Of a stretch of DNA of 64,000 nt, positions 50,713 through 52,422 are shown one piece after another. The notes beneath the pieces were generated by a model. That model ran no database searches, was not told where the DNA came from, and worked only from the letters and a program-made list of their open reading frames with translations. The DNA is taken from the NCBI RefSeq assembly GCF_020382885.2, contig NC_058497.1, forward strand, positions 19,026,330 to 19,090,329, given 5' to 3'. A program made the position numbers and the translations under genes. Each line of letters starts with the position of its first letter. Position 1 is the first letter of the stretch. This DNA is from Scatophagus argus. Lineage: Eukaryota; Chordata; Actinopteri; Scatophagidae.

Positions 50713-52422
50713 ATGGTAGGTCAAACTGATGCAATCGTTGGAAAGATTTTGCTATTCTGTTGATGTTAACTGGGTTTGATTGTCACTCATATGTGTCTGT
50801 TTAAATAGATTTTTTTACCTCGCCATTGCGACACAAGTCAACCATCCCCCGCGCTCTTTCAGACAGGAAACTACATTTTTACAAGTTGCATCAAAAACAT
50901 TTCCTGACCTACATGTCTGAATAGTTTTTTGAATGTTTAAAACCTCAATATGTGAACAGATATTTTACCCCTGTTCTTTGGCTGGAGACCAGTGCAGAAG
51001 CATCGAGACACATTTTAGTATTTCTTCGATTGACACAGTTTGAGGTTTTGTTTTTTTTCTTTCTTTCTTTTGCAACATTTTGCAGTCAAGCTCTCTGGTT
51101 GTGTGCGAAGTGGAGGAAAGTCTGAAACAAAAACTGAAAAAGTTTAGATTTCGAAAAGAGACCAACAATGCTGCCATTCTGAGTAAGTATTACAGACTTT
51201 TGTTGTAAATTGATGAACACAAATTCAAATCCAGTATGAATACCAGTACATCAACAAATACAAAACAAAAGCAAAAAAAGCTGAAACAATCACTTTCACT
51301 TCTCAGTGAAAATAGACATGGAGAAACAACTTGTTATCCTTGAGGAGGAATATGAGGCAAGTAGAATTTTGTAATTTTGTTTTATTTTTGTCTTTTTTCA
51401 TTGTGCTTTAAATTCTACTTAGACTCATCTTTGTCTTGCAGGACATCTCACTGGATGACTTGAGAGAAGAACTTCCCGAACGACAACCCAGATATCCTGA
51501 CTGAATGTATTATGTTTGTATATCTGCAGAGCCATCTGTTCATATGGTAAAAACATGTGCTTTAACTCTGGGGGGGAATAAAAGTTGAACTTCCTTGACA
51601 GCAGTTCACATTCATTGTCTACAGCTACAAATATGTCCATGCTGATGGGAGGGTGTCTTATCCTCTGTGTTTCATATTCTCCAGTCCAATGGGTAAGTAG
51701 TAACGGTTACTTAAATCAAAAGCCATATTTCGTCCTAAACATAACTGCTGAATTATAAACACGCATCTCCCCTGGTCCGAAATCCACTTTGCTAAAAGTT
51801 GTTGTTGGAAAGAGATTGTGGAGGCGTGTTTGACCGGTCAAATCACAGAATCCCTTGGAAACATGTCAAGTTTCATTTTAACAGGATGCAAGCCAGAGCA
51901 ACAGATGATGTATGCAGGCAGCAAGAATCGACTCGTCCAAGCTGCAGAGCTCACAAAGGTAATCATCTCAAAACTCCGACTCATAGTTCATTACTCCAGT
52001 GGTATGTTGAAGCATTTAATGGAAGTTTTATTGTTTGTTTGAAGATGCACCCTTAAGCGTAAATTTGTCAAACATAATAAATACATAGTTTCTAATCTCA
52101 ACTCTGGATTCAGACTTTTTTAATTAACTTTCTTATCCTGTAACGTCAATCAGCACATTAAAGTGGGATTTGCCACTTTCAGACTTTAGCATGGTATTCA
52201 TTCTTTTAGGGGTCACTTGTTGTTTTGATTCTTCGACCCAATCGTATTAGCACCTTGCTCGAGTATTCATCAGTTGACATCTTTGAACTTTTTAAATTTG
52301 CTAAGATGTTACTCGGAATTTGAACGCAAAACTCTGCTTTATTCCACGAGGTCTTTGAAACAAGAAACGCTGATGACTTGACAGAGGAGTGGCTGAAGAA
52401 CCAGCTGGCATTTTTTCGCTGA
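50713..52422 (+). CDS. gmfg: glia maturation factor (gamma type), ADF-homology protein
   Basis: Seven coding exons: 50713-50715 (the ATG alone), 51086-51182, 51307-51356, 51442-51491, 51610-51692, 51885-51958, 52351-52422. Together they give 142 residues, exactly the length of human GMFB and GMFG. Motifs include [61 protein letters not shown] and the C-terminal LTEEWL. GMF proteins have an ADF-H fold, bind Arp2/3 rather than actin, and promote debranching of actin networks in the cytoplasm. VLEEE and YVH favour GMFG over GMFB, as do the samd4b and paf1 neighbours. Intron 3 (51357-51441) begins GC, and intron 4 (51492-51609) is AT-AC with U12 signals. Using GT donors instead shifts the frame or meets a stop, so both are needed. 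Confidence 0.93.
51492..51609 (+). other. U12-type AT-AC intron in gmfg
   Basis: The donor AG|ATATCCTGAC matches the U12 AT-AC consensus ATATCCT. The branch element TTCCTTGAC (51,591-51,599) matches the U12 branch consensus TTCCTTRAC, with its branch A at 51,598, 11 bases before the end of the intron. The acceptor is TTCAC|ATTCATT. Retaining the intron would give PR, then a stop a few codons on (CCT GAC TGA). Confidence 0.9.

Follow-up and report, generated by a model that had tools for sequence, protein, structure and literature searches.

An ATATCCT donor and a branch element resembling TTCCTTRAC are usual in the U12-dependent AT-AC introns of vertebrates. The branch A is best placed 11-13 nt from the intron end (PMC3584512, quoted part). 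In Table 2 of the IAOD paper (PMC7367187), the share of AT-AC introns within the U12 class is 26% for human, 22% for zebrafish, 12% for both fugu and Tetraodon, and 8% for Xenopus; the first-pass annotation of the DNA described here, which had presented AT-AC introns as a small minority even of minor introns, was therefore overstated with respect to the 8-26% tabulated for these vertebrates. The class of U12 introns is strongly kept in vertebrates, the quoted part of PMC2831892 giving conversion in only five of 180 clusters, and a value of 91% for the human minor introns that are conserved in zebrafish is quoted in an extract of PMC10639083.

The closest described system is intron 4 of human GMFB. 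In the available extract of a study that used exons 4-5 of this gene, the intron is stated to be a minor intron, with the borders TCGatatcc at the 5′ site and ttctttaacttgagaaaaacCTT at the 3′ site (PMC7244321). The only other paper that came up in the open-access literature for GMF and minor splicing, PMC3931319, does not bear on this intron. As regards the paralogous GMFG, no paper naming a minor or U12 intron in this gene was found in the open-access literature; words beginning with GMF are absent from the main texts of PMC9501576, PMC2831892, PMC3584512 and PMC10639083, as are words beginning with GMFB or GMFG from the main text of PMC6717393.

The DNA analyzed here is a 64-kb stretch, hereafter the window, and all positions refer to it. 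With a probability of about 95%, positions 51492-51609 represent intron 4 of a bony-fish-like gene for a glia maturation factor (GMF), probably gmfg, and belong to the U12 class with AT-AC ends. The intron is already known, inasmuch as a minor AT-AC intron has been published in human GMFB, at what is by our reading the matching position (extract of PMC7244321); it is an ordinary intron, which does not change current views of splicing, and it offers a clean case of a minor-class intron correctly read from raw sequence.

The GMF gene and the elements of its fourth intron

The coding part of the gene is located on the + strand at 50713-52422 and it is composed of seven exons (50713-50715, 51086-51182, 51307-51356, 51442-51491, 51610-51692, 51885-51958 and 52351-52422, the stop codon being counted in the last one). 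All seven are intact, and their joining gives a coding sequence of 429 nt including the stop, the translation of which has 142 amino acids. In phmmer searches against PDB chains, this translation was matched over its full length by 4jd2_H (GMF gamma, E 1.7e-72) and 1v6f_A (GMF beta, E 3.5e-69), which we take to be mouse proteins, while its Pfam domain is Cofilin_ADF (E 6.5e-33); the predicted product is thus a full-length member of the ADF-homology group, close to GMFB and GMFG. None of 71 pattern matches among viral_contigs was a relative of the GMF protein. The six introns measure 370, 124, 85, 118, 192 and 392 nt and have, in the same order, GT-AG, GT-AG, GC-AG, AT-AC, GT-AG and GT-AG ends. 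The compactness of the gene, together with its neighbors, points to a bony-fish-like GMF gene; the 118 nt of intron 4, to which the first-pass annotation had drawn attention as short, make it the second shortest of the six, all of which are short, and are an ordinary length in this gene, the other introns ranging from 85 to 392 nt.

U12-type introns have the consensus RTATCCT at the donor and TTCCTTRAC at the branch site, and these letters were used in the donor and branch scans. Intron 4 (51492-51609, + strand, phase 2) contains the three elements that had been proposed for it: the 5′ splice site ATATCCTGAC at 51492-51501, with an intact ATATCCT core at 51492-51498; the branch element TTCCTTGAC at 51591-51599, which is an exact TTCCTTRAC with the branch A at 51598; and the 3′ splice site AC at 51608-51609. 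The usual bases at positions +8 and +9 of U12 donors are T and T, and those of intron 4 are G and A; apart from this less usual feature, there is no difference of kind from the U12-type AT-AC introns of vertebrates. The distance from the branch A to the last intron base, 51609, is 11 nt, as had been indicated, and it agrees with the 11-13 nt that have been published as the best spacing (PMC3584512; PMC6717393, quoted parts). Beginning with AT and ending with AC, the intron is of the AT-AC subtype, in a register that is set by the motifs.

AT-AC ends alone are no proof of U12 dependence: U2-type AT-AC introns exist, the rare examples in sodium channel genes among them, and the segment could in principle be removed by the major spliceosome like these (PMC2831892, quoted part). 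Such a removal appears very improbable, as the sodium channel introns, despite having the same ends, all carry a G at +5 according to the same extract, whereas intron 4 carries a C; moreover, intron 4 combines the ATATCCT core with an exact TTCCTTRAC, a U12 branch element being a further point of difference from the sodium channel introns, and its human GMFB counterpart has been published as minor (extract of PMC7244321). Among the other five introns of the GMF gene, the +5 base is T in intron 6 and G in the remaining four. U12-type introns are expected to have no clear polypyrimidine tract ahead of the 3′ splice site; pyrimidine content was therefore also considered as a means of separating intron 4 from the other GMF introns and it failed, since the pyrimidine fraction of the last 20 nt is 0.65 in intron 4 and lies inside the 0.55-0.70 of the other five; the longest pyrimidine run near the 3′ end is 7 nt in intron 4 and 16, 6, 5, 4 and 4 nt in the others.

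Reading frame, chance and the human counterpart

The requirements of the reading frame were analyzed by considering every removal of at least 30 nt inside 51442-51692. The frame stays open to the end in 2000 cases, and the ends are GT-AG, GC-AG, AT-AC or AT-AG in nine of them, namely four AT-AC and five AT-AG; GT-AG or GC-AG ends are found in none of the 2000, because the stretch from 51442 to the stop at 51502 contains neither GT nor GC. Exon 4 (51442-51491, 50 nt), which is likewise devoid of GT and GC, ends with CCC AG, and exon 5 (51610-51692) begins with A-TTC, so that their junction completes Arg67 and gives Phe68; the RQPRF sequence expected by the first-pass annotation from this arrangement is indeed seen in the joined translation of 142 amino acids. 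Among the nine removals, 51492-51609 is the only one that yields the full 142 amino acids, and the donors of the other three AT-AC removals lack the U12 core. If any ends are allowed, 142 amino acids are obtained from three removals, 51492-51609, 51493-51610 and 51494-51611, with identical mRNAs, because intron 4 and exon 5 both start with AT. Thus, the claim that the frame demands exactly this segment is correct as far as the mRNA is concerned, but not for the register, three removals shifted by single bases being equivalent; since the mRNA is the same, cDNA alone cannot fix the register and the splice-site motifs do so, spliceosomal ends being present in one of the three only, the AT-AC pair of 51492-51609.

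An in-frame alternative 3′ end, without five conserved residues, is found in the segment 51610-51624 of the + strand, which contains the AG at 51624 (TGTCTACAG). The removal of 51492-51624 keeps the frame open and leaves 137 amino acids; the main mRNA might accordingly use this AG, as an AT-AG intron whose removal would leave a GMF five residues shorter, or both 3′ sites might alternate. We regard this as hardly credible: use of this AG deletes RFIVY, which is kept, with V or I in third place, in five GMF chains among the alignments listed, and it lies 26 nt from the branch A, against the optimum of 11-13 nt given in the quoted part of PMC3584512, where AT-AG pairs are also said to be disfavored.

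As for the expectation by chance, the 10-base donor ATATCCTGAC occurs once in the window, with 0.11 occurrences expected and presence in 11 of 100 shuffles, and TTCCTTGAC is the only exact TTCCTTRAC on the two strands. The full motif set, defined as exact RTATCCT, exact TTCCTTRAC and a matching terminus 9-15 nt past the branch A, within at most 500 nt, has a single occurrence on the two strands of the window, and at least one in 10 of 500 dinucleotide shuffles, with a mean of 0.02; by itself it is only moderately improbable in 64 kb and therefore only suggestive. The set is located exactly where the frame requires a cut, and the call of the intron is therefore firm. That the gene is silent or the motif fortuitous, with no splicing at 51492-51609, is the least probable of the readings: the set alone does arise in those 10 shuffles out of 500, but here it is placed at the one site where the frame needs a cut, in a gene with seven intact coding exons, an open frame of 142 amino acids and a full-length match. 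A relaxed scan (exact donor, at most one branch mismatch, at most 5000 nt) returned four further U12-type pairs, three on the + strand and one on the - strand, which are attributed to chance, the total of five being below the shuffle mean of 5.96. Looser settings on the + strand gave 22 hits with at most two branch mismatches within 2000 nt, and 11 hits with at most one mismatch each in donor and branch within 1500 nt, both counts being without a shuffle control.

The U12-type AT-AC intron at 51492-51609 can be compared with its human counterpart through the borders quoted from a single paper (extract of PMC7244321), which were read against the GMF protein rather than through an alignment of the human gene. 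The human letters TCG|CTT are compatible with Pro-Arg-Phe if the Arg codon is split between its second and third bases, thus indicating the same place and phase; by this reading of the quoted letters, human GMFB intron 4 would be a phase 2 intron that interrupts the same Arg codon of RQPRF. Human exon 4, to judge from the letters quoted for its start (GGC, CACCAGA) and its end, also fits the exon 51442-51491. The two introns are alike in that the human one has a donor starting with atatcc, an end in ac and a branch-like ttctttaac near the 3′ end. They differ in the branch element, which is TTCTTTAAC in human GMFB, 12 nt from the end by count, and TTCCTTGAC at 11 nt in the window; in the flanking exon bases, TCG|CTT in the former and CAG|ATT in the latter; and in the genes themselves, the human one being GMFB and that of the window probably its paralogue gmfg. 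The published human intron thus joins donor, branch, spacing and frame in supporting the U12-dependent AT-AC reading made by the first-pass annotation. The comparison of intron class between GMFB and GMFG that it had suggested has an answer for human GMFB only, in which the intron is published as minor, with atatcc...ac borders.

Paralogue and age of the intron

The sequence of the protein failed to discriminate between gmfb and gmfg: identity over residues 2-138 is 104/137 to GMF gamma (4jd2_H) and equally 104/137 to GMF beta (1v6f_A), and at the 26 sites where these two chains differ, the window protein follows gamma at 10, beta at 10 and neither at 6. The neighboring genes are more informative. 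Downstream of GMF, a Paf1 domain match is present on the - strand at 56499-56837 (E 3.7e-12). Upstream, the - strand contains a Vts1-like match at 46819-47088, with 29 bits against a cut-off of 27, while a SAM match on this strand at 45406-45687 remains below its cut-off (22.1 against 23 bits). The two stretches are read, from these similarities, as a probable SAMD4 (Smaug) gene, which may be either SAMD4A or SAMD4B. Six stretches were scanned in all, and no domain match was obtained for two of them, 46064-46702 and 53156-53656. A Ser/Glu/Asp-rich open frame lies at 53153-53656 on the - strand; it has no Pfam match by itself and is read as the putative C-terminal end of PAF1.

SAMD4A is located near GMFB on human chromosome 14, and PAF1 is for this reason the telling neighbor. 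GMFG, PAF1 and SAMD4B are found together at human 19q13.2 in a copy-number table (PMC2937017, quoted part). The presence of PAF1 and of a SAMD4-like gene suggests that the gene of the window is probably gmfg.

An AT-AC minor intron shared by a probable gmfg and human GMFB points to an origin before the split between GMFB and GMFG, if the gene is indeed gmfg and unless the two copies were later evened out. Intron 4, which matches human GMFB intron 4, is probably inherited. A further extension is speculative and, in our opinion, rather unlikely to hold in full: the AT-AC intron may have been present in a single pre-duplication GMF gene, with class and subtype kept in both copies, and its retention, by which the protein is cut short right behind RQPR, may control the level of GMF in both paralogues in a way that depends on the minor spliceosome.

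Splicing, retention and other features of the region

From the letters of the DNA we infer that 51492-51609 is actually spliced and that its splicing depends on U12. In the minor spliceosome, the U11/U12 di-snRNP acts first, followed by U6atac and U5. At this locus, the ATATCCT donor and the branch element TTCCTTGAC would be recognized jointly by the di-snRNP, before U6atac and U5 come into play. The cut would be made after the AC, 11 nt from the branch A, and the ligation of exons 4 and 5 would restore Arg67 (AG+A) and preserve the conserved RQPRF.

If intron 4 were retained, the fourth codon past the split Arg codon would be an in-frame TGA, at 51502-51504 (+ strand), and the protein would end with RQPRYPD. 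Along this message, the stop precedes the exon 5/6 junction by 188 nt and the exon 6/7 junction by 262 nt, and a stop so placed upstream of exon junctions usually leads to nonsense-mediated decay. Thus, the message that retains intron 4 would probably be degraded, and slow minor splicing could in this way lower the output of GMF. According to quoted parts of two papers, short minor introns are retained more often in mouse and human (PMC6717393), and the U12 introns that a zrsr2 mutant of zebrafish retains are shorter than the others (PMC9501576); by analogy, the same tendency may apply to intron 4.

Intron 3 (51357-51441, 85 nt) has GC-AG ends, GAG|GCAAGT ... TTGCAG|GAC, GC-AG being a known U2 subtype. 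Twenty frame-open removals with GT-AG, GC-AG or AT-AC ends, six of them GT-AG, were tested for this intron, and the GC-AG removal of 51357-51441 was the only one to give 142 amino acids; the 50-nt exon 4 is thus flanked by two introns without a GT donor. A gene finder limited to GT-AG introns would break the gene, as this exon has a GC-AG intron upstream and an AT-AC intron downstream.

Two other features of the window were noted. A tRNA-Pro gene (anticodon CGG) was predicted by ARAGORN at 49835-49906 on the + strand, approximately 0.8 kb upstream of the site where the GMF coding sequence starts, and it was classified as a tRNA by Rfam. On the - strand, an open frame of 557 amino acids at 33991-35664 has SOCS (PF12610), SH2 and SOCS-box matches, and it is read as a putative SOCS4/5-like gene, with the coding part mostly in one exon.
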